Made by a program: the position numbers and the translations under genes. DNA of 64,000 bases from Verrucomicrobiota bacterium (lineage in GTDB: Bacteria > Verrucomicrobiota > Verrucomicrobiia > Limisphaerales > UBA9464): assembly GCA_947454705.1 (NCBI GenBank), contig CANGKZ010000020.1, positions 1 to 64,000 of the forward strand. The letters run 5' to 3'. Under the pieces are notes generated by a model. That model ran no database searches. It worked only from the letters and a program-made list of their open reading frames with translations, and was not told where the DNA came from. Position 1 is the first letter of the stretch. Each line of letters opens with the position of its first letter. This document shows positions 3,304 to 55,180 of this stretch, piece after piece.

Positions 3304-6300
3304 ATGGCAACCACGATGAATCAGGGGCGGACATGTCCGAAGTGCGGCAAACCGACGGCGACCGGGGAACTGGCGGATCTCTGCCCCGCCTGCCTCCTCG
3401 CCCAGGGCCTCGAAACCGAACCCGGCACCGGCCCGCGTGTCCGATTTGAGGCCCCCCCGCTGGAACGCATCACGCGGCTTTTTCCCCAGCTCGAGGTGCT
3501 CGGGTTGATTGGATCCGGCGGCATGGGGGCGGTGTACAAGGCGCGTCAGCCGCCGCTCGACCGCATCGTCGCGCTGAAAGTGCTGCCGGCATCCAGCCAG
3601 CCCGGCAACCGGTTCGAGGAACGGTTCAATCGCGAAGCCCGCGCACTCGCCCGATTGAATCATCCGCACATCGTGACAGTGCACGAGTTCGGTCAGGTGG
3701 AGGATTTGCACTTCTTCCTCATGGAGTTCGTGGACGGCACCAACCTGCGCCAGTTGGAGAAAACGAGCCGCCTCTCTCCGCGGGAGGCGCTGCAGATCAT
3801 TCCCCAGCTCTGCGATGCGCTTCAATACGCGCACGACGAGGGCGTGGTGCATCGCGACATCAAGCCGGAGAACGTGTTGGTCGATCGCAAGGGCCGGGTG
3901 AAGATCGCCGACTTCGGACTGGCCAAGATTCTTGATCCCTCGGCCGATGCCGAGGCGGCGCGACTCACCGTCGAAGGCCAGGTGATGGGCACGCCGCACT
4001 ACATGGCTCCGGAGCAGTTGGAGAAGCCCCTCGCGGTGGATCATCGGGCCGACATCTACTCCCTCGGCGTGGTGTTTTACGAGATGCTCACCGGGGATCT
4101 CCCGCTGGGAAACTTCGCTCCGCCTTCGCGCAAGGTGCAGGTGGATGTGCGGCTCGATGAAGTGGTGTTGCGCGCGCTCGAGAACGATCCCACCCGGCGC
4201 TATCAGCAGGCGGGTGAGGTGAAGACCCGCCTGCAATCCATCGCCGATACGGCTCCCGAGCCGACCGCATCCGCCGCCGCAAAACCCAGCGTCGTCTTCC
4301 TTCGATTCGCGGGGTTCCCAGTGGTCGCGGAAAAAGATGGAATCCGCTCTGTCCATCGTCCCGGAGTCGCCAAGGGCTTTGCGGTCCTGTTCGGCGTGTT
4401 GACGGTGATCATGGGATGCTGGGCGCTGGTTCGCGGAGGCTATGAGGCCGGATGGTTTGGCCTGGTGGGATGGCCCAGCGTCGTGATCCGTATTGCGATC
4501 TCCGGACTGCTCATGGCTTGGGGCGTCCGTTCGGCGCGGCGCAAAAAACTCGAACCCCGAATTCCGGCGATCGCCCCCGTGGTGGTACTTCCATCGGAGG
4601 GCACCTCCAGGAAGGCGGTGCTCGGGGCCGTTTGTCTGGCGCTCGGATTCGTGGCGCTGGCGCTATTCCTCACTCCGATGGCGCATACCACGAACCCACT
4701 GCAAAGCGCAGCCGTCATGCGGGTGCAGGGCTTCCTCGTGGGCTTGATTGTCGTCACGATCCTGCTCGCACCTGTTTGCGCCACCTTCTTGGGCTGGATC
4801 GCCGTGCGCGACATTCGCCAATCGCGGGGCCGTCTCGGCGGACTCAAGCTCGCCGTGTTCGACGGGCTCGTTGTCCCGTTGGGACTGATCAATTCCATTC
4901 TCATCTTTGTTCTCCGAGGCGGCCTTTCCTTCGCGGAAGGAACCGGCTGGCACTCTTCGTCGAATCTCACCGCAAATCTCGCTCTTGGCTGGCTCCTGAT
5001 TCTCGCGGTGAACTGGATCCTGGTGCGTGCGATTTGGAACCGGGTGCGCCTCGACGAATCGCCCGAACGGGAACGCTGGTGGTGCCAGGCGCCCGCAATC
5101 ACTGCCCTCGCGATCACCTGCCTCCTGGTGATTCAGGTCACCACCCAGCTTCGTGCGAGCCGTATTCCCTCCTTCGGAATGTTTTCCCGGCCACCGAATC
5201 AGATCGCCACCGAAGATGAAAAGGGGGCGCTGATTGCGGTGTTGCCAAACGGATCTCAACTCGAGTTGTTGGCCGTCGAAACGCCGCAGCATCCCGAATC
5301 CCCTTGGAGCCTTCCCAATGGGACGCCCCTACCCCAAGGCAGCTATTCCATAACCAATTCAGAACCAATTTTGGACACCAATTCAACGGCCACCCGATTG
5401 ATCCTGCGCCTGACCGGCAGCTCACTACCGCTTCAGTCGATTGGATTCTTCATCGCGCAGCAGTCCATGGGTGGGTCGATGCAATCCAGCGGCAACGTTT
5501 ATCCCTACGAAGGGGTGCTCAAGGACGGCAAGCCTCTGCCGGGCGCCTTCTACATCTGGAAATCGCAACTCAATGAGGGCTCAGAAAAAACCTTTCGGTT
5601 GGCGGTGGATCTGGATCCCTGGCAGGTCATCGCCACCGCCGATGTCGAGGGGCGCAACCGGAACGACGCCTTTACGTACCCGATTCCAGGAGTCTCGGTA
5701 CGCTTTCAACCGGCGGGGGAATACAAGGGCCGCACCCGGTTAACGACGATCGCCCAGCTCTTCGATCCCGATTTAGACACCGCCATACGAGCCTTGGGAA
5801 CGAATGGAACCGTCCTCTCTCAGACCAAAGGGGAAGGCGGGACCTCGTCCTACGGGACGATGACGTTGTTTTCGGAATTCGACGTGCCTCTCAGAGAGAT
5901 TCGCGGATTCCAAATGTCGGTCCGAAAGCACCACTGGATCGAATTCCAAAAAGTCATCCAGGGAACCAGAGCGATCGCCCCACCGGAACCCGCCGCGATT
6001 CCGACTGCAACGACGGCTCCGCCCCTGATCGAAGTCCGATTTCCCGCACTGCTGGATCTCGATACCGGACACTTCGGAGACCTGCCTACCGCGTTCGAAA
6101 ACCAAACCGGCAACCCCATGGCGGAAATCGGCAGCACCATCGAATTCATGCAGTCCCACGGCTACGACGTGATGCATTCACACGATCATCTCGATGCCAT
6201 CGGGTTGAAACTCGTCCCGCTCCAACCGGGGGACTGGGAATTGATCACCGCGCGGGAGCTTCAATTGCGGCTGGAAACAGCGGGAACCCTGACGTCGAAG

Positions 6301-42065: not shown

Positions 42066-43619
42066 ATGGCAGCCGTACCGAAACCAGCACCTGGTGGAAA
42101 GTCCGTGGGACGCTTCCGCGCGTTTCTTGAGCTGTTCAGCAACAATCCGCTCGGCCATTTGCTGTTCGGGGTCGCAATCATCATTGGATTTTTCCACGGA
42201 TGGCTGAAGAACGAGATTCGACACTGGTTCATCACCTTCGCTTTTGATGTTCCGCTGACGCTCGCCCTGATCGTCACCCTCGCCAAACTACCCCGCATGC
42301 AGCCATGGTTTCCCGATTGTCGGATCGGAAAATCGTTAAGCGCATTTGTAGGGATCAGCATTCTCTACCTCATTCTTCCGTTCGGAGTTCCGTTTTTGAT
42401 CGGTCTGTCCGCACTTCGTGCCTGGATCTTTGCACCCATCATCTTTTTGCTGGGTTTCCATCTGACTCGCAGCATTCGTCAGATTGAGGCCTATTTCTGG
42501 CTTTTGATTCTCCTCGGGGCGATCACGGCGATCTACGGATTGTTTCAGACCCCGGAGGAAATCAAGCGACGCATGGAAACGGACCCGGAGTTCGCCCAGC
42601 GCTTTTTCAACACGTTCTACGGAAACGCCAAGGGTGAGGCAAAACTCCGCGTCTTCTCTACTTTCGTGAGCGCAGCCGCATTCGGCGGGGTCATGGCGTA
42701 CACCATCATGTTCGCCGTCGCGCGTTTCTCCGTGGAGGGAAACACCTGGATCGAACGGACCATCCTGATCGCCCTCGCGGTGCCCATGGCCTACGGAATC
42801 ATTTTGAGCGGATCCCGGACGTCCCTGATGATGATGGCATCCGGGCTGATTTATACCTCCTGGTACCGGCGCAATCTCCTGACCTATCTGGTGGCACCGG
42901 CAATGATCATTGCGGGATACGCCTTCGGTCAGGAGAAAACCGGGGGTGACTCCTTGGATCGATTCTTGACCATTCTCGATCCCTCCGTGATTTGGGGGCG
43001 TCTCTACATCGTCCTTTCCCCGAGCATCAACTCGCTCGTCAATTACCCGCTCGGAGGCGGGCTGGGGCGTTCCGGAAACGGAATTCCATTCGTGCTCGTG
43101 GGCATGTTCTCCAATTTTGATTTCCGGGCAATCGACGGCGAGGCGGGACGATTGGTCGTCGACATGGGCATCATCGGAATGATCGTCTACTGCTACCTCA
43201 TTTTCTCCGGTTCTGCCGATGCAATCCGTAACATGTCAAAGCTGCGGGATACGCCGCTTTCCGTCATCGGTGTCCCTGCTGGCGCGATGTTTCTAATCGC
43301 AGTTTCGACCATCTTTACAGGATCCCCTTTCCTCGCGATCCCCTCCGGACCGCTGTTCTGGTTCTTCCTGGGAGCGCTTGAACGACTAACCCAGGAGTAC
43401 GGTAAACTGGAGGCCGCGGCACCCGGTCAGGCGAAGTTTAGCGACATGTTCGTGTCGTTCATCCAACCGCCGCGACAAAGACTCCTTTTCACCCCGTCCT
43501 CTAATTCCGGCGCTCAGCCCGAGCGAATCGAAATCCCGTCGTTCGATAAAGACGCGTCTTCACGGTTTCCCCAGAGGAACACCAAGGCCAACGCGAAGAG
43601 GTTTCTTTACAGACGATAG
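42066..43619 (+). CDS. O-antigen ligase/polymerase-like membrane protein
   Basis: A 517-residue inner-membrane protein with about 10-12 hydrophobic segments (first at about 30-45) and a larger extracytoplasmic loop before LNYPLGGGLGRSGNGIPF, which is where WaaL/Wzy-family proteins carry their functional loop. It probably polymerises or ligates lipid-linked repeat units. The C-terminal 70 residues are soluble and Arg/Pro-rich. It is convergent with the next glycosyltransferase across a 186-bp gap without a clear feature. Confidence 0.82.
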   Translation: MAAVPKPAPGGKSVGRFRAFLELFSNNPLGHLLFGVAIIIGFFHGWLKNEIRHWFITFAFDVPLTLALIVTLAKLPRMQPWFPDCRIGKSLSAFVGISILYLILPFGVPFLIGLSALRAWIFAPIIFLLGFHLTRSIRQIEAYFWLLILLGAITAIYGLFQTPEEIKRRMETDPEFAQRFFNTFYGNAKGEAKLRVFSTFVSAAAFGGVMAYTIMFAVARFSVEGNTWIERTILIALAVPMAYGIILSGSRTSLMMMASGLIYTSWYRRNLLTYLVAPAMIIAGYAFGQEKTGGDSLDRFLTILDPSVIWGRLYIVLSPSINSLVNYPLGGGLGRSGNGIPFVLVGMFSNFDFRAIDGEAGRLVVDMGIIGMIVYCYLIFSGSADAIRNMSKLRDTPLSVIGVPAGAMFLIAVSTIFTGSPFLAIPSGPLFWFFLGALERLTQEYGKLEAAAPGQAKFSDMFVSFIQPPRQRLLFTPSSNSGAQPERIEIPSFDKDASSRFPQRNTKANAKRFLYRR

Positions 43620-46420: not shown

Positions 46421-47536
46421 ATGAAACTCGCGCTGGTTGTTCACGACTTCGATCCCGGCTACGGCCAGGGTCGCTACTGCGTGGAGATCGCACGCCGCCT
46501 CGCGGGACGCATCGAAATCGAGGTTCACTCCAACACCTGGAACACCGACCCGATCCCGGGAACCGTGTGGAGGAAGGTTCCCGCGTGGCGAAAGAATGTG
46601 GTCACCACCGTCGCCTCGTTTCTCCCGTCGGCAGCGCGATCACTTCGACGCTATCCAGCAACCCTGGTCCACGCCCAGGGACTCTCCTGCTGGTCGGCAA
46701 ACGTGATTACCGCCCACATTTGCAACGCGGCCCGACGCGCCCACCTTGCCGGCTCGCCCCTCACGGCCCGCGCCTTTGCCGCAGGCATCAGCCCGGTCGA
46801 ACGCTCCTTCTACCGGCGGCAGAAAAACGCCCACCTGATTGCTGTTTCAGAAGTGGTACGCCGGGAAGTTCGCGATAACTACGGATGGAGCGGCGCATCA
46901 TCGGTCATTTACCACGGCACCGACATCACCCGTTTTCGACCGCCTGAATCCACCGCAGAGCGTGCTGAAGCGCGCCAGCGGTACGGCTTGCCGGCGGAGG
47001 CGTGGGTCTGGCTGTTTGTTGGCGAGGCGGTGAAAGGCCTCCGCGAAATCATCCGCATTCTTCCCCAGTTCCCGACGGTGCATCTCCTCGCCATCACCCG
47101 TTCGGTGCGGGACGAGTACCAGGCACTTGCTGAATCGCTCGGCGTCGCCGGACGCACCCACCTCCGGGGTCCGGAATCAAAACTGGAACTCGCCTACCGG
47201 TCGGCCGATGTGTTTGTTTATCCCGCACATTACGACTCGTTCGCCCTGGTGGCCACGGAGGCGATGGCCAGCGGGCTGCCCGTGCTGCTGGGCAACCAGA
47301 TCGGAGCCGCGGAACTGATTACTGCCGGGGAAAACGGCCTGCTGTGCGACCCGCGCAATCCCGATTCCATCCAACAACAATTGCACTGGATCCAAAACCA
47401 TCCCGATCGCGCTGCCGTCCTGGGACGAGCCGCACGAAAAACACTCGAACGCCACACCTGGGATGACTGCGTCGCGTCGACCTGGTCCGTGTACCAACAG
47501 ATGGACAGCTTCCTCGCATCGAAGAAAGTCGAATGA
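46421..47536 (+). CDS. glycosyltransferase family 4, paralogue of the divergent neighbour
   Basis: A 371-residue GT-B enzyme starting MKLALVVHDFDPGYGQGRYC, with HAQGLSCWSANVITAH, WLFVGEAVKGLREII, and PAHYDSFALVATEAMASGLP in the donor half. In the E-x7-E region the first Glu is replaced by Asp (YDSFALVATE), while its paralogue keeps Glu. ATG 46421 is chosen because it aligns with the paralogue start; the upstream open frame is antisense to that gene. It overlaps the next glycosyltransferase as ATGA. Confidence 0.9.
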   Translation: MKLALVVHDFDPGYGQGRYCVEIARRLAGRIEIEVHSNTWNTDPIPGTVWRKVPAWRKNVVTTVASFLPSAARSLRRYPATLVHAQGLSCWSANVITAHICNAARRAHLAGSPLTARAFAAGISPVERSFYRRQKNAHLIAVSEVVRREVRDNYGWSGASSVIYHGTDITRFRPPESTAERAEARQRYGLPAEAWVWLFVGEAVKGLREIIRILPQFPTVHLLAITRSVRDEYQALAESLGVAGRTHLRGPESKLELAYRSADVFVYPAHYDSFALVATEAMASGLPVLLGNQIGAAELITAGENGLLCDPRNPDSIQQQLHWIQNHPDRAAVLGRAARKTLERHTWDDCVASTWSVYQQMDSFLASKKVE

Positions 47537-48642
47537 AACCAATCGCAGTTACCTTTCTGGTCAACGGACGATTCGACGGGATCGAAGCAGTCCGCGCCAA
47601 CGGATTGGCGAAGCACCTGGATCCTTCCACCACACGGTTTCTCTATCGTGGTCATAGCCGCTGGGTGTCCGCCTGGAAATGGATCGGCGCACTCTGGGGA
47701 AACCACGCCCAAGTCCACTACGTGCTCAACACGGCAATGCCCGGAGCGTTGCTGGCGGTCTTCTGGCGCTTCGCGTTCGGGGTTCCCTACGTTCTCGACA
47801 CAGGAGACGCCATTTATGCCATGGCAAGGCGCTCCGGGACCAAGGCAGGTTGGCGCCTTCCTCTGCTCTGGATGCTTGAGCGCGTCGCCGAGCGCTTTGC
47901 AGCAACCATTGTAGTTCGTGGAACAAACCACCGGGACCATCTGGTGCTGCAGGGGCGCAAACGCGTCGTGGTCATCCGCGACGGATGCGCCGAGCAGAGT
48001 TCGGCCACCGAGGACGCCGTCGATACGCTCCGAAAATCGCTCGGACTCGGAGACCGTTTTGTGGTGGGTCTGATGGGATCCCTGGTCTACAGCCCCCGAC
48101 TTCAAATCTGCTACGGATGGGACCTCGTTGAGGCACTGGTTGATCTCAAGGATCTCCCGGTCACCGGATTGGTGATCGGAGACGGCCCCGGAATGAAGTG
48201 GCTGGTTCAGCATGCCACCAAGCTCGGAGTCATCGACAGACTGGTTTTCACGGGGCGAATTCCCTACTCAGCAGTTCCCACGTACCTCCGGCTCATGGAC
48301 GTCGCCATATCCACGCAGACCAACAATCTGCCTGGGCAAGTTCGCACCACCGGAAAGGTCCCGGAATACATGGCTGCGGAACGGTTCATTCTGGCAAGCA
48401 AGGTCGGGGAAGCAGCGCTCCTGTTGCCGGACATCATGCTGATTGATTTCAACGGGGAGGTGGACCGCTCGTATCCCAAGCGACTCGCCGAGCGCATTCG
48501 GTTACTCCAGTCGAAACCCGCCTTACTCGAGGCACGATACGGAACGACTGCCCTTGCAGCACAAGAGTGCAACTACTCCTATCTGAGCTCCCGACTTGTC
48601 TGGGTCATCGAGGAAATCCTCAAGGCCAAGACGCCGAAATAA
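47533..48642 (+). CDS. glycosyltransferase family 4
   Basis: A 369-residue GT-B enzyme. N-terminal FLVNGRFDGIEAVRANGLAK; donor half with RFVVGLMGSLVYSPRLQICYG, LVIGDGPGMKWLV and GKVPEYMAAERFILASKVGEAALLL. It is translationally coupled to the preceding glycosyltransferase (ATGA). Its 3' end overlaps the convergent FHA gene by 23 bp. Confidence 0.87.
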   Translation: MKPIAVTFLVNGRFDGIEAVRANGLAKHLDPSTTRFLYRGHSRWVSAWKWIGALWGNHAQVHYVLNTAMPGALLAVFWRFAFGVPYVLDTGDAIYAMARRSGTKAGWRLPLLWMLERVAERFAATIVVRGTNHRDHLVLQGRKRVVVIRDGCAEQSSATEDAVDTLRKSLGLGDRFVVGLMGSLVYSPRLQICYGWDLVEALVDLKDLPVTGLVIGDGPGMKWLVQHATKLGVIDRLVFTGRIPYSAVPTYLRLMDVAISTQTNNLPGQVRTTGKVPEYMAAERFILASKVGEAALLLPDIMLIDFNGEVDRSYPKRLAERIRLLQSKPALLEARYGTTALAAQECNYSYLSSRLVWVIEEILKAKTPK

Positions 48643-49012
48643 GAAGCCAAAGCAGTTCCGCCACACCGATCAGAAGGATCAGCGAAGCCGCTCCGATCTC
48701 AAGCCAGTCGAGATTGCGTGGTCGCGCAGGGCAAAGCCGGAACTGGAGGCCCACCCCTCCAAGTTCAAACACATCGCCATTCTTGATGCGAAGGGATCGG
48801 TGGGATTTGCCGCCGCTGTAAATCGTGGCCTCGCCCACTGCTTCGATGTGAAACCCTTCTGGGCCCCGATCCGCGAGCACGGCGTGCTTTAAAGCGACGC
48901 CAGTCGATTCCAAATCGATGTCGGACCCGGAGCGTCCAATCGAGCACGGCAAAGCCGGCAGCGGAATTACCGTCTGCGCCCGCCGTCCGGTAAGGATGGC
49001 AAGCTCAAGCAT
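48620..49012 (-). CDS. small FHA-domain protein with C-terminal membrane anchor
   Basis: A 130-residue protein. The FHA domain fills residues 2-95: SIGRSGSDIDL with conserved Gly26-Arg27, the KHA segment with His43, and KNGDVFELGG with Asn78-Gly79-Asp80. These are the residues that bind phosphothreonine peptides in FHA domains. One hydrophobic helix (about 105-127) ends the protein, so the FHA domain is probably tail-anchored facing the cytoplasm. It begins 8 bp after the Wza-like gene, so it is the last gene of the export operon. A possible reader of Ser/Thr phosphorylation on the export machinery; inference. Confidence 0.8.
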   Translation of the reverse strand: MLELAILTGRRAQTVIPLPALPCSIGRSGSDIDLESTGVALKHAVLADRGPEGFHIEAVGEATIYSGGKSHRSLRIKNGDVFELGGVGLQFRLCPARPRNLDWLEIGAASLILLIGVAELLWLLISASWP

Positions 49013-49020
49013 CGCAACAC

Positions 49021-49686
49021 TCAGAGCAGCGTGCGATGAACATGAACCGTGTCACCGGGATAAAGGGGGATGTCGAACTTGGGATCATCCACCGCTTTGC
49101 GAAGGTTCACCTTCAAGGTCTCGCCATTGGCCCGCTTGATGAGCACTTGACGGCGGTTGGCGAATTCCGTGCAGCCCCCAGCCGCGTTGATCGCAGTGGT
49201 CAGGGTCATGCCCGCAGTGAAGGGAACGGTACCGCTCGGGGTGCGGACCTCGCCACCGACCGAGATGAACAATCCCAGGCGTTCGATGGTGACCTTGATG
49301 CGGTTGTACAGCTTCCGCTGCTTGACGTAGATATCTTCGATTTCCTTTTCCAGATCCGTCCGCTTTTTGCCGAGCAGGTAGATCTCCACATTCTTGTGAA
49401 GCGTGAGCTTTCCGTCCTCGGGAATCTGATCATCTGTCGCAGCCGGTGCATCGGGAATGTCGGCAAAGACGATGCGAATCCGGTCTCCAGCACGGAGGTA
49501 ATCCATTCCGAGCGAGGAGGCGGCTTTGGCGGCTGCCGCTTCATTGGAAGCCGTCTTCACAGCACCGGGCGCGGCCACGGGATCCGCGTCAGGCGACGTG
49601 GTCTGACATCCCGACACCAGGACTGCACACACGAAGGCGGCAAGGATGGACCACACCGTACGGATTCGAAATCGATCGAGATTCAT
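49021..49686 (-). CDS. polysaccharide export lipoprotein (Wza-like, Poly_export/SLBB)
   Basis: A 221-residue lipoprotein. Signal peptide with lipobox LVSGC (Cys27); polysaccharide export domain at about 65-145 (LRAGDRIRIVFADIP, DGKLTLHKNVEIYLLGK); a single SLBB repeat follows (SVGGEVRTPSGTVPFTAGMT to GDTVHVHRTLL). Shorter than E. coli Wza (379), with one SLBB instead of two and no C-terminal pore helix, so the outer-membrane channel may be provided by another protein such as the barrel encoded upstream. 52 bp after the tyrosine kinase gene. Confidence 0.9.
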   Translation of the reverse strand: MNLDRFRIRTVWSILAAFVCAVLVSGCQTTSPDADPVAAPGAVKTASNEAAAAKAASSLGMDYLRAGDRIRIVFADIPDAPAATDDQIPEDGKLTLHKNVEIYLLGKKRTDLEKEIEDIYVKQRKLYNRIKVTIERLGLFISVGGEVRTPSGTVPFTAGMTLTTAINAAGGCTEFANRRQVLIKRANGETLKVNLRKAVDDPKFDIPLYPGDTVHVHRTLL

Positions 49687-49738: not shown

Positions 49739-51916
49739 TCAGTATTTAGGCCGCACGTCGATGCCGGACTTGGAAGCCTTGGCCGCCTTACCGTCTGCCT
49801 TCTTCTCCCCCTCAGGGCGGCTGTCGTCGCTCTTGGAGTAGTAGTCGTAGTAGTAGCCGCTGTAGTAGTAGTAGTAGCTGTCCTGCGAAATGTTGATGTT
49901 GTTCAACACCACGCCGAGAAGCTTGCCGCCCACCTTCTCGACCATCTGCTTCGCGCGAAGCGTCATCTGCTGGGGATACTTGCGGTACTGAACCACCAGG
50001 ATCGCCATGTCCACTTCACTCGCGAGAATCGAGGCGTCGCTGACGCCCATGATCGGCGGAGAATCGAAGAACACGAAATCGTATCGGCTCTTGGCCTCCT
50101 CGATGAACGCCCGCATTGCAGCGGAATTCAAGATGCCCATCGAGCTGCTGGGGAGCTTACCCGAGGGAAGGAAGTCCATCGAAGGCAGGCTCGTGGTCTG
50201 AATCACTTCCTCCAGCTTGTTCTGCTTGAGGAGGTAGTTGGTCAGACCGACGGTGTTCGCGACGTTCATCAGCTTGTGCAAGCTGGGACGACGCAAATCG
50301 GAGTCCACGATCAGCACGCGGCTGCCCTGCTGGGCAAAGATGGTCGCGAGATTGAAGATCGTGGTCGATTTACCTTCGCCTGCGCCGCCGGACACGACGG
50401 TCATGGTGCGCAGACCCGGATCCTTGCGTGAGAACAAAACGTTGGTGCGCAGGACGCGATAGGCTTCCGCGTGCGGACTCTCCGGTCCTTCGTTGATGAG
50501 CGTTCCGACGTTCTGCGGGATGACACCGAGCACAGGGGCTTGGAGGGCCTGTTCCACGTCGTCGATGGTCTTAACGCTGGTGTCGAGGTATTCGATGAAG
50601 AATGCGAGACCGACGCCGAGCAGCAAACCGGCGATTGCGCCGAGGGCGATGTTCAACATCTTCGCCGGCTTGACCGGGCGGAGTCCGGGAATGGCGTAGT
50701 CGACGATTTCGACCGAGCTTTCCTTGGAAATCGCACCCGTCACATTTTCCTGCATGATCGCGGCAAGCATGGCCTGACGGACACGATCCAGAGTTTCCAA
50801 CTGACGCTTCTTGTCGCGGTACGGCTGGTAGGTCGCCATTTTCTCAGCGTCCACCTTCTGAGCGTTGGACAGGGTTTCTTCGATCTTGTTCTTCGTGTCC
50901 CGGTCGGATTCCACCTGGGTGCTCATCGAGGCCATGATTCCCGCGACCTGCTTGTCGATCTGGGAATTCAGGGTCTTGATCACCTCATCGATACGCTTCA
51001 CTTCGGGATGCTCCGGACCGTAGTCGGGATTCAACGAAACCTTCCGAACCTGGGCGGTGCTCAAGTCCTGCAACAGACTCTGCAAAAGCGCGGTCGGCTT
51101 GGTGGCGTTGAGCGCATCGCGCAGCTCGGATCCCTGCTTCTGCTTCAAATTGCGCAGAATGATTTCTTCCTGATTCAACCGACTCTCGATCTCGGTCTTC
51201 ATCATGCTCAGACGACGAATCTCGTCGGTCGAGAGCGATTGGAACTGCCCGCCATCGACCACGATGTCGGGAATCTTGAGCCGTTGCTTCAGCTCATCCA
51301 CCTCGGCCTGCTTCACCTTGAGGTCGGCCTCGAGATTCGACAGCTGATTGGTCAGAGTCTCCAGACCACGATCCTTTTTGCCAGACCGAAGGGAATTGCG
51401 GTACTGCTCGTAGGATTGGGCGACCGCATTCGCGACATCAGCCGCCGACTGAGCCGTCGGGCTAAGGGCGGTGATTTCGATGATCGAGGTGTTGCGGAAC
51501 TGCTTTACCTCCACCTGACCGGATAGGATGTCATAGGACTCCTGAGTGGTGTACTCCCGGGCCGATTTGTTCCGCTTCGAGAATTCGACGTTTAGGCCGA
51601 GTTTCTCGATGACCGGATTTAGGATTTTCCGCGACTTGAGAACCTCGAACTCCGTGGTGAGGAAGTACGGGTCATACATCTGCGACCCGCCGCCGATTCC
51701 GAAAGGCGTGATGTCGGGAGTATCCTTTTCGATCTTGAGCCGGGCAGTACTGGAATAGGAAACCGGAAGAACGAAGGTCACCGCGGTCGTGGTGATGACC
51801 ACGAGGAGGAACACCGCGAGGATGATGACCTTGCGGATCCGGATGATCCGCCAATAGTCCAGGAAGTGAAGCTTTGCGTCCGACGACGGCGCCGGCGGTG
51901 TCTTGGCGGGTTCCAT
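49739..51916 (-). CDS. Wzc-like chain-length determinant/tyrosine autokinase
   Basis: A 725-residue inner-membrane BY-kinase. Wzz region with TM1 at about 30-50, a long periplasmic coiled-coil segment (150-430), and TM2 at about 445-465 (LNIALGAIAGLLLGVGLAFF). The cytoplasmic kinase has Walker A GGAGEGKSTT, Walker A' VLIVDSDLRRP and Walker B FVFFDSPPIMG. A C-terminal tyrosine cluster (DSYYYYYSGYYYDYYSKS) with ten Tyr in 15 residues is the autophosphorylation tail. It controls polymer length and export together with the Wza-like protein. A terminator-like hairpin lies directly before its start codon and no SD is visible. Confidence 0.94.
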   Translation of the reverse strand: MEPAKTPPAPSSDAKLHFLDYWRIIRIRKVIILAVFLLVVITTTAVTFVLPVSYSSTARLKIEKDTPDITPFGIGGGSQMYDPYFLTTEFEVLKSRKILNPVIEKLGLNVEFSKRNKSAREYTTQESYDILSGQVEVKQFRNTSIIEITALSPTAQSAADVANAVAQSYEQYRNSLRSGKKDRGLETLTNQLSNLEADLKVKQAEVDELKQRLKIPDIVVDGGQFQSLSTDEIRRLSMMKTEIESRLNQEEIILRNLKQKQGSELRDALNATKPTALLQSLLQDLSTAQVRKVSLNPDYGPEHPEVKRIDEVIKTLNSQIDKQVAGIMASMSTQVESDRDTKNKIEETLSNAQKVDAEKMATYQPYRDKKRQLETLDRVRQAMLAAIMQENVTGAISKESSVEIVDYAIPGLRPVKPAKMLNIALGAIAGLLLGVGLAFFIEYLDTSVKTIDDVEQALQAPVLGVIPQNVGTLINEGPESPHAEAYRVLRTNVLFSRKDPGLRTMTVVSGGAGEGKSTTIFNLATIFAQQGSRVLIVDSDLRRPSLHKLMNVANTVGLTNYLLKQNKLEEVIQTTSLPSMDFLPSGKLPSSSMGILNSAAMRAFIEEAKSRYDFVFFDSPPIMGVSDASILASEVDMAILVVQYRKYPQQMTLRAKQMVEKVGGKLLGVVLNNINISQDSYYYYYSGYYYDYYSKSDDSRPEGEKKADGKAAKASKSGIDVRPKY

Positions 51917-51972: not shown

Positions 51973-53205
51973 TTAGTAGCTGGCGCGAATTCCGAGGAAC
52001 ACGCGGTTCCGGGAATAGCCACGAGCGAGAAGGTTGGAGCTCAGGTCATCGTAGGAGTACGAGGCCTCAGCGGAGAGGTTGGCGGTGATCTGGTAATCCA
52101 ATCCACCGGAGACGGTGAAGAAGGTTTCAGACTTGCCGTCGATGGTGGCGCCGCCGCCGTGGAACTGGGAGTCCTGATACTGGGCGCTGGCGTGAGCACC
52201 GAGCTTGCCGGTGATCTGGTGGCGAATCACGCCATAGACACCCGTGCTCTCCTGATCCTGAACGATGTTGCCGGCGAAGTTGAGGTCGACATCAGTCGCA
52301 TTGCGCTGATGACGGACACCCACCTGAACACTGCTGCCAGGGGCGTAGCCGTACTTCAAGTTCGCATCAACGTACGGAGAAGTCTGGTTGTAGCCGAAGG
52401 CGTTGTAATCGTACTTGGTGATCTGAGCACCGCCGCGAACCGCACCAGTCAACTCAGGGCTGAAAGTGTGATCCAAACCACCGAAGAAATAGTGGGAGGT
52501 GTTGTCACGAGCCGAGGCGCGAAGGCCGCTGGCGAGGAACAAGCCGCCGTCATGCACCACGGAACCATACTGATACCCGAGGACACCCACGGTGGTCGGA
52601 GCGAGCTGGTAGCGGAGGTTGAGGGAGGGAAGGTGCTCGACACGATTCAAAGCCGCCTTGAACGCAGCGTTTTCGTAGTCGTAGTAGCCGTTGTGGTAAC
52701 CGACAACGACGCTCCACTTTGGGTCAATCGTGTAGCTCAGGCTGATATTTCCCTGATTGTTCAGGTTGTTGCCTTCGGTACGGAAGAAGAGGCCGGAGAA
52801 GATTTCCTGAGGCTCCCGGGTCACCGAGAAGGAGTCGCTGGCGGCCAGAGACAGCTTTTCGTTGAACTTGTGATCCAAAGCCGCGCTGACGGCGTGCCCC
52901 TGATCCCAGTTGTTCTGCGCCTTCGAGGTACCATAGTACTTCGCGCTGTAGGCGTAGGAGAGGCTGACCGTGGTCGCCTCGAAGTGGGTGGCGTAGGAGA
53001 GGCTGGGGCTGACTTCGAAGCCGAAACTATCCACCTTCGCCGGACCAGCAGGCCGGGTGTAGATGTTGTCGTCGTAGAAACCGCGAAGCGAGGCACCGAT
53101 GGTCCAGGGCTTGGAGCCTCCTTCCGAGGCAGTTGCAACACCTTGCAGAGAAAGGCTTGCAGCGCCGACGGACAACATTCCTGCGGTGCGGATGAACTTA
53201 TTCAT
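51973..53205 (-). CDS. outer-membrane beta-barrel protein of the exopolysaccharide operon
   Basis: A 410-residue protein with a signal peptide (MNKFIRTAGMLSVGAASLSL...ATAS). The mature part is amphipathic strands with many Tyr, Gly and Asn and a C-terminal GIRASY, like BBP2-type barrels found in Wzc/Wza exopolysaccharide clusters. It probably forms or assists the outer-membrane exit. ATG 53205 gives the proper signal peptide; the frame is open to 53226. A near-consensus promoter lies 61 bp upstream, and a terminator follows before the next gene. Confidence 0.85.
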   Translation of the reverse strand: MNKFIRTAGMLSVGAASLSLQGVATASEGGSKPWTIGASLRGFYDDNIYTRPAGPAKVDSFGFEVSPSLSYATHFEATTVSLSYAYSAKYYGTSKAQNNWDQGHAVSAALDHKFNEKLSLAASDSFSVTREPQEIFSGLFFRTEGNNLNNQGNISLSYTIDPKWSVVVGYHNGYYDYENAAFKAALNRVEHLPSLNLRYQLAPTTVGVLGYQYGSVVHDGGLFLASGLRASARDNTSHYFFGGLDHTFSPELTGAVRGGAQITKYDYNAFGYNQTSPYVDANLKYGYAPGSSVQVGVRHQRNATDVDLNFAGNIVQDQESTGVYGVIRHQITGKLGAHASAQYQDSQFHGGGATIDGKSETFFTVSGGLDYQITANLSAEASYSYDDLSSNLLARGYSRNRVFLGIRASY

Positions 53206-53265
53206 ACAGAGAAAATCTTTGAGCACTCTTTGGAGGCAGTCGTTAACGAGCTAATTGGCATGTAG

Positions 53266-53305: not shown

Positions 53306-55180
53306 CTAGCGGAGGGACTCTTCCGAGCTCTGGAATTGGGGTAGATTCCCCCCCGACTCGTCTTTCCCCTCGAGTTCCCGAACGGCGGCCTGGGCCCGTA
53401 CCATGCGAAAATAGAGACCGCCAAGCCCCACCAATTCGTCATGGGTGCCGCGCTCAACGATGCGGCCGTGGTTCAGGACAAGAATTTGCGTTGCGTGGCG
53501 GATGGTGCTTAGCCGATGGGCCACCACGAAGCTGGTCCGCCCCTGCATGAGGCGCTCCAGTGCCTCCTGAATTCGACGTTCGGTGGCCGTGTCCACGCTG
53601 GCCGTCGCCTCATCAAGAATCAGGATCGGGGCATCCTTCAGCAGGGCGCGCGCGATGGTGATCCGTTGTTTTTCGCCCACGCTGAGGCGAACGCCGCGCT
53701 CCCCGACCCGGGTGTCGTAGCCTTCCGGCAGGCGGTGAATGAAGTCGTGGCAATTGGCGGCCCGGGCCGCGGCTTCGAGATCCGCCTCCCCGGCGTCGAG
53801 GCGGCCGTACAGGATGTTCTCCCGGATCGTCCCATTGAACAAAAAGGGCTCCTGGCCCACGACAGCGATCTGGGATCGAAGCTGGGCGAGCGAGAATTCC
53901 CTGAGCTCACGTCCATCCACACGAATGCTTCCACCGGTGGCCTCGTAGAAACGCGGTAGAAGTTGCACCAAGGTTGATTTTCCAGCCCCGGTGGGACCAA
54001 CGAGGGCAATCATTTCGCCCGGCGACGCCTTGAGGCTGACGTCCTCGAGGGCGACTCGATCCTTTCCATAGCGCGCGGTAACACCGAGGTATTCGACAGC
54101 CCCCGACAGCCGAAGCGGGGATGCGGAGGCCGGAGAGTTGGCACCGGAATCACCCGGTCCGGTTTCGATCGAGGTGTCCAGGATGTCGAACACCCGCTCA
54201 CCGGCGGAACGCGCGCTCTGCAGCATTTGATTCAGCGAATGCAGCCGTCCCACGGGTTCGTAGAAGAGCCCGAGATAAAGAACGAACTCCACCAGCGCAC
54301 CGACCTGCATCTGCCCCTGAATCACGAGTTTCCCGCCCACCCACAGCACGAGCACCAGACCCAGCGCGGAAGCACAGGACATGGCGGGATTGTACCACGC
54401 CCAGACTTTCATGACGGTCAGTGTTCCCTGCCTCAACTCGTCGGCGCGCTGCGCGAACCGGGCGTCCTCGTGCACTTCGCGACCGAACGACTTGATCTGC
54501 CGGACCCCCTGAAGGTTGTCCATCAGCAGCGCATTCATCGCCGAGCTGGCCTCCCGCTGCGCCCGATACCGTTTGTGGGCGGTCAACGTGTACCAGAGCG
54601 CTCCCGCCAGCAGGATGGGAATGGGAACCAGGGCCACCAGCGCTAGGGTGGAATTGTTCAGGAAAAGCAGCGTGGCGACGCCGACGATTGCGACGATGGC
54701 CACGACGCCCTGCTCGGTTCCATCGATGAGCAGGCGCTCCATGGCCCCAACATCCTCCAGCACCCGGGTCATGAGATCTCCGGTGGCGCGATGATCGAAC
54801 CAGGATTGAGGCAGCCGCTGGAGATGCCCGTAGAGCTGGCGTCGGATGTCGAGAATCACCCGCTGTTCGAACACGTTGTTCAACCGGATGCGAAGCGAGT
54901 TGAACGAATCACGCAGGATGAACGCCCCGAGGAGGGAGAGGATCACCGGGGTGAGCAAGTCCGCCCGGTGTTCTCCGATCACCCGGTCGATTACCATCCG
55001 CGTCAGCTTGGGATAGCTCATCGCCGCCGCCTGGGAGAGCAGCGCGCAGGCAATCACCCCGAGGGCCATGAAGGGATAGGGCTTCAGGTAGGTCCCCACG
55101 CGACTCACGATTTCCCACGTGGTGCGGGACTTCACCTTCATGGAAGGGTCCGTGGGAAGGGCCTGAATGTGTCGCGACAT
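53306..55180 (-). CDS. ABC exporter, MsbA/lipid-flippase type (fused permease-ATPase)
   Basis: A 624-residue half-transporter. Six membrane helices in about 30-330 (FMALGVIACALLSQAAAMSY to GGKLVIQGQMQVGALVEFVL), then the nucleotide-binding domain: Walker A GPTGAGKST, Q-loop VGQEPFLFNG, signature LSVGEKQRI, Walker B LILDEATASVD, H-loop VAHRLSTI. The signature has Val-Gly-Glu-Lys instead of the common SGGQ. It probably exports lipid-linked material, fitting the neighbouring glycan genes. Start ATG 55180 or ATG 55141 (MKVKSRTTW). Confidence 0.92.
   Translation of the reverse strand: MSRHIQALPTDPSMKVKSRTTWEIVSRVGTYLKPYPFMALGVIACALLSQAAAMSYPKLTRMVIDRVIGEHRADLLTPVILSLLGAFILRDSFNSLRIRLNNVFEQRVILDIRRQLYGHLQRLPQSWFDHRATGDLMTRVLEDVGAMERLLIDGTEQGVVAIVAIVGVATLLFLNNSTLALVALVPIPILLAGALWYTLTAHKRYRAQREASSAMNALLMDNLQGVRQIKSFGREVHEDARFAQRADELRQGTLTVMKVWAWYNPAMSCASALGLVLVLWVGGKLVIQGQMQVGALVEFVLYLGLFYEPVGRLHSLNQMLQSARSAGERVFDILDTSIETGPGDSGANSPASASPLRLSGAVEYLGVTARYGKDRVALEDVSLKASPGEMIALVGPTGAGKSTLVQLLPRFYEATGGSIRVDGRELREFSLAQLRSQIAVVGQEPFLFNGTIRENILYGRLDAGEADLEAAARAANCHDFIHRLPEGYDTRVGERGVRLSVGEKQRITIARALLKDAPILILDEATASVDTATERRIQEALERLMQGRTSFVVAHRLSTIRHATQILVLNHGRIVERGTHDELVGLGGLYFRMVRAQAAVRELEGKDESGGNLPQFQSSEESLR

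Follow-up and report, generated by a model that had tools for sequence, protein, structure and literature searches.

The last gene of a polysaccharide-export operon in Verrucomicrobiota encodes a small, tail-anchored protein with an FHA fold. Two of the residues with which FHA domains normally recognize phosphothreonine are missing from all family members, and the protein, therefore, probably serves the exporter as a structural partner instead of sensing phosphorylation. The protein is encoded within the window, i.e., the 64,000-nucleotide stretch of DNA analyzed here. We estimate a probability of about one in two that it is a phosphothreonine-blind FHA scaffold, an accessory subunit docking on the Wzc platform of an exopolysaccharide exporter of the OPX/beta-barrel type. 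Capsules and biofilm polymers are products of Wzc-type machines, and an extra subunit would bear on how such machines are regulated in addition to autophosphorylation on tyrosine.

On the minus strand, the operon contains, in this order, genes for an outer-membrane beta-barrel protein (BBP2_2/EpsL-like; 51973 to 53226), which is the first gene of a conserved four-gene unit; a 725-aa Wzc-type polysaccharide co-polymerase with a fused tyrosine kinase and a Tyr-rich C-terminal tail (49739 to 51916); a 221-aa short OPX (Wza-like, SLBB) lipoprotein (49021 to 49686); and the FHA protein (48620 to 49012). An ABC exporter gene upstream (53306 to 55180, minus strand) adjoins the unit in only some relatives and is, therefore, outside the conserved core. 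At the other end, a convergent glycosyltransferase gene (47533 to 48642, plus strand) shares the last 23 bp of its 3' end with the FHA gene. The genes downstream of the FHA gene vary among relatives, and the FHA gene is, therefore, the end of the conserved unit.

The beta-barrel protein matched BBP2_2 with 62.3 bits, and the Wzc-type protein contained Wzz, GNVR, and AAA_31 domains. The OPX protein, which the original prediction had called Wza-like, matched SLBB_2 with 44.9 bits, but its Poly_export match of 24.8 bits is below the 28-bit cut-off, and it terminates directly past the SLBB domain and therefore lacks the outer-membrane helix of Wza. Using NCBIfam, the best match for the beta-barrel protein was EpsL and that for the OPX protein was an XrtA-system export protein, with all matches below the equivalog cut-offs. 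The operon, thus, includes a short OPX protein without a C-terminal membrane domain, an adjacent beta-barrel, and a co-polymerase, and this gene order recurs in relatives. Because the OPX protein is truncated in this way, the operon looks like a composite OPX/beta-barrel exporter as in Myxococcus (PMC9601211), unlike the classical Wza. The genome contains three loci with Wzz and OPX proteins, of which only the one in the window includes an FHA protein. The Wzc protein at this locus is of a subtype marked by the motif HFLDYWR in its cytoplasmic N-terminal part and by a tail rich in Tyr (YYYYYSGYYYDYY), both conserved throughout the order, and HFLDYWR was absent from the Wzc paralogues that were read. 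Among the linked Wzc proteins, 37 of 39 had the Tyr-rich tail.

The FHA gene has an ATG start codon and a product of 130 aa. As predicted, it is the last gene of the operon and is separated from the SLBB gene by a gap of 8 bp (49013 to 49020). The FHA-fold domain spans residues 1 to 95 (48728 to 49012) and was recognized by Pfam (PF00498, 27.6 bits with a cut-off of 20.7, E = 4.1e-6). An AlphaFold2 model based on the family alignment had a mean pLDDT of 92.8, with a beta-sandwich at residues 1 to 95 and a helix at residues 102 to 127. Using this model in Foldseek, the best matches were the FHA domains of GarA/OdhI (E = 8.5e-7), to which the fold could be matched with a VIA Z score of 15.8 and an rmsd of 1.7 Å over 92 residues, and the nearest solved structures were the FHA domains of GarA, OdhI, and FhaA. 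In searches against the PDB, phmmer with the protein as a single sequence returned nothing, while the family profile matched FhaA/GarA. The predicted C-terminal membrane helix (residues 102 to 127; 48632 to 48709) was also confirmed, with the highest-scoring 19-residue hydropathy window (2.3) at residues 107 to 125, and in the model the protein ends three residues past this helix. No signal peptide was seen, and basic residues precede the helix; because of these two features, the N terminus is likely cytoplasmic, and the protein would be a tail-anchored inner-membrane protein with its FHA fold in the cytoplasm. A chance open reading frame was ruled out by the conserved family, purifying selection, and the high-confidence model. 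No curated family names the protein, the best NCBIfam match having 12.9 bits with a cut-off of 125.

The original prediction held that the phosphothreonine-binding residues are intact. Based on a profile alignment to FhaA/GarA, which set the residue register, this is not the case. At the position of the canonical phosphate-binding Ser of the SxxH motif, the 111 family members have Trp (106), Ala (4), or Phe (1), and none has Ser; in the window protein, this residue is Ala40 (codon GCT, 48893 to 48895) within G-V-A-L-K-H. At the position of the Asn of NG(T/S), the 111 members have Ala (81), Thr (12), Gly (9), Ser (4), Cys (3), or Arg (2), and none has Asn. Ala62 replaces this Asn in the window protein, and Gly67 replaces the Asn of V-N-G. 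The expected conservation of Arg, Ser, and His among homologues was, thus, found for the Arg of the GR motif (104 of 110; Arg27 in the window protein) and the structural His (109 of 111; His43) but not for Ser. Three further FHA domains are encoded in the genome; these have VSRRH, VSSHH, and VSSVH together with NGT or NGS, and all three keep the Ser and the Asn; therefore, the loss of the pocket is specific to this exporter-linked FHA family, for which an annotation as "FHA, phosphothreonine binding" is misleading.

The strongest constraints in the family are the GVWDxH motif, an invariant Gly79, and a Gln or Glu midway along the membrane helix (110 of 111; Glu119 in the window protein), and Glu105 is conserved in 100 of 111 members. 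A wider family of Verrucomicrobiota single-pass FHA proteins (L137, L138, L143, and L145 to L149) has Gln at the same place in the membrane helix; these proteins have long, often Pro-rich, and probably periplasmic C-terminal parts and occur in other gene contexts. Because this Gln is shared with the wider family, the residue is probably ancestral and related to the packing of the helix.

The linkage of the FHA gene to the OPX gene extends far beyond the window genome, which refutes an adjacency confined to this genome. In 63 of the 66 genomes read (44 of 46 and 19 of 20 in two sets of genomes), the FHA gene is located directly behind the OPX gene, and in the other three, it lies between lptF/G and accA. 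Among 40 loci, the start of the FHA gene overlaps the stop of the OPX gene by 1 nt at 19 and by 4 nt at 2. Using a single-sequence search, the FHA protein was found in 47 of 58 relatives, and 6 of the remaining 11 gave strong matches by profile. In G003 and G014, the wzc-opx pair is present without an FHA gene. In G005, which, like G003, belongs to the same genus as the window genome, no FHA gene was seen before the contig end, and in G020 and G029, an orthologous Wzc was not found. In G114, the locus is cut by the contig end, where the beginning of the FHA protein is still visible.

A scan of the named genomes with a single FHA protein or with the A1 profile returned no loci. To avoid picking loci by the FHA gene, loci were also collected based on Wzc by an alignment search of the named genomes. 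In this collection, which was limited to the 80 best among 394 Wzc relatives and overlaps in part with the genomes read for the FHA gene, the profile of the FHA family matched with E below 1e-25 at a distance of 635 to 953 nt after wzc at 77 of the 78 loci with enough sequence, and the sole true negative, L160, corresponds to the G003 contig. Almost all of these loci carry titles of MAGs from Verrucomicrobia, Pedosphaera, or Limisphaerales; a few titles look doubtful. These data support strong conservation of the OPX-FHA adjacency within the order of Limisphaerales/Pedosphaera-type Verrucomicrobiota. A spread to Omnitrophota was rejected, since the Omnitrophota-labelled locus L208 groups within the Verrucomicrobiota clade in the tree and is probably a binning error. 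G052 contains two near-identical copies of the FHA gene, both located at the edge of a contig or close to it, which perhaps represent an assembly or strain duplicate.

In the three genomes with the FHA gene elsewhere (G040, G057, and G178), its LptF/LptG neighbor was identified by PF03739 (211 bits). There was no match to the window-type Wzc at an E value of 1e-20 in G040 and G057 and no Wzz or Poly_export match in G057 and G178, while G040 has a Wzz/Poly_export match of another kind. In a tree built on 129 columns, in which many forks are unresolved, the FHA proteins of these genomes group near that of G036, inside the members linked to exopolysaccharide genes (with an SH-aLRT of 94 for this group), and because of this nesting, the lptF/G-accA placement is probably a derived relocation. 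A general linkage to accA was rejected, as tblastn searches of 21 other genomes detected neither lptF/G nor the FHA gene at a distance of up to 1.5 kb from accA. Because the FHA genes of these genomes lie away from wzc, the protein is not strictly tied to Wzc and may have a partner other than Wzc. Three genomes keep the protein without a window-type Wzc neighbor, and a few have lost the gene; therefore, we consider the protein accessory.

The FHA protein is under constraint and yet evolves fast. In the clade of the window genome, dN/dS was ~0.14 to 0.33, which is a rough estimate with synonymous sites near saturation, and the replacement divergence of the FHA gene exceeded that of wzc by a factor of ~4 and that of opx by a factor of ~2.5. 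Ala40 is limited to this clade of four genomes, in all of which the frame is intact.

In the mechanism we favor, the exporter would consist of the beta-barrel, the short OPX protein, and the Wzc-type kinase/co-polymerase, with the FHA protein as an accessory subunit. Having lost the phosphothreonine pocket, the FHA domain would act as a constitutive protein-docking module, and the membrane helix with its buried Gln/Glu would pack against transmembrane segments of the platform, most probably those of Wzc. This packing would help the complex to assemble or couple it to cytoplasmic enzymes, and the protein may in this way affect polymer amount or length. Against this mechanism, G003 and G014 dispense with the FHA gene, three genomes have it beside lptF/G and accA, Arg27 is near-invariant, which a pure scaffold would not need, and the Gln in the membrane helix is common to the wider single-pass family. 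Only tentatively do we extend the proposal to an order-wide pseudo-FHA subunit, the helix and FHA face of which would bind Wzc and tune assembly or chain length without binding phosphothreonine, possibly while sensing the Tyr-phosphorylated tail. That the domain is a remodelled phospho-reader, with the kept Arg binding another phosphate, e.g., in the phosphotyrosine tail of Wzc, and sensing the state of the kinase, appears unlikely. The conserved Arg and His, the Tyr-rich tail of the linked Wzc proteins, and the plentiful Ser/Thr kinases of the genome would agree with such a function, but the Ser and the Asn of NGT are missing in all members, the Gly-Arg turn may be structural, which makes the conservation of the Arg ambiguous, and the same tail is retained by Wzc orthologues whose loci no longer have the FHA gene. 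We know of no FHA-type reader of the phosphotyrosine tail of Wzc or of a like phosphate.

It is also doubtful that the protein is a general envelope adaptor, with LptF/G, an enzyme for lipid-linked sugars, or a membrane kinase as its true partner, and is merely co-expressed with the exopolysaccharide genes in most of the order. Such a role would account for the FHA gene between the LptF/LptG gene and accA, given that two of these three genomes have no Wzz/OPX match, and for the wider family with the same Gln in other contexts. However, the three cases form one group nested among exopolysaccharide-linked members, neither gene was seen by tblastn near accA in the 21 other genomes, and the near-perfect linkage to one Wzc subtype favors a partner in that operon. 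The original prediction, in which a canonical phosphothreonine reader would couple Ser/Thr kinase signaling to the export complex, had in its favor the closeness of the fold to GarA/OdhI and the 30 Ser/Thr kinase (Pkinase) matches in the genome, yet with the Ser and the Asn of NG(T/S) absent from 111 of 111 homologues, it is very unlikely; nothing was found in this analysis that links these kinases to the FHA protein. One Ser/Thr protein kinase domain (3493 to 4122, plus strand) lies in a 1060-aa open frame in the window, 45 kb away. Finally, in the genus of the window genome, the FHA protein could be on its way out and vestigial, as hinted at by the Trp-to-Ala change at position 40 in the four-genome clade, the gene missing from G003 and not seen in G005, and the faster replacement divergence; the low dN/dS, rough as it is, and the intact frames make this highly improbable.

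The FHA protein and its operon resemble several systems that were characterized previously. GarA/OdhI and FhaA from Actinobacteria share the FHA fold (28% identity over 92 residues) as well as the GR motif and His, but they have VSRRH and NGT where the family described here has Trp/Ala for the Ser and Ala/Thr/Gly for the Asn, and only the latter has a C-terminal membrane anchor. In the rings of type III secretion systems, the cytoplasmic domain of PrgH/YscD/PscD is a degenerate FHA domain with poorly conserved phosphopeptide residues that appears not to read phosphothreonine and yet is required for assembly (PMC3635987). The protein described here likewise has a degenerate FHA fold and a single membrane pass and is linked to a machine that spans the envelope, with fold matches at Z scores of ~12; the type III proteins differ in having large periplasmic ring domains past the helix, where the protein described here stops. 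It scored 19.5 bits for Yop-YscD_cpl (PF16697), the cut-off of which is 33.2 bits. Among co-polymerase partners, the pseudokinase scaffold EcpK (PMC12004946) and the small Wzc-binding protein RmpD (PMC10294653) are non-catalytic, were demonstrated to bind, and affect exopolysaccharide output or chain length. Both are unrelated to the FHA protein, for which binding to the co-polymerase is our proposal; the scaffold logic would be similar to that of EcpK, RmpD, and PrgH/YscD. A conserved subunit with the fold of a phospho-reader and no phosphothreonine site would, after EcpK and PrgH, be a further instance of a signaling domain reused as a structural part.

EpsX/EpsY of Myxococcus form a composite OPX/beta-barrel translocon in a Wzx/Wzy-type pathway with a co-polymerase (PMC9601211). 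The operon in the window resembles it in encoding a short OPX protein without the outer-membrane helix next to a beta-barrel and a co-polymerase, and a text search of that paper gave 0 occurrences of an FHA component. In the open-access journal literature that was searched, we found no report of FHA with Wza/Wzc/OPX or with Verrucomicrobia exopolysaccharides, which is weak evidence of novelty. The exporter class is, thus, known, while the conserved pseudo-FHA subunit is apparently undescribed, and the suggestion of a new module stands in the form of a conserved accessory gene of a polysaccharide-export operon. Elsewhere in the window, a hydrophobic, apparently multi-pass 517-aa protein without a Pfam or NCBIfam match is encoded amid glycosyltransferase genes (42066 to 43619, plus strand) and is a candidate Wzy/ligase-like polymerase.
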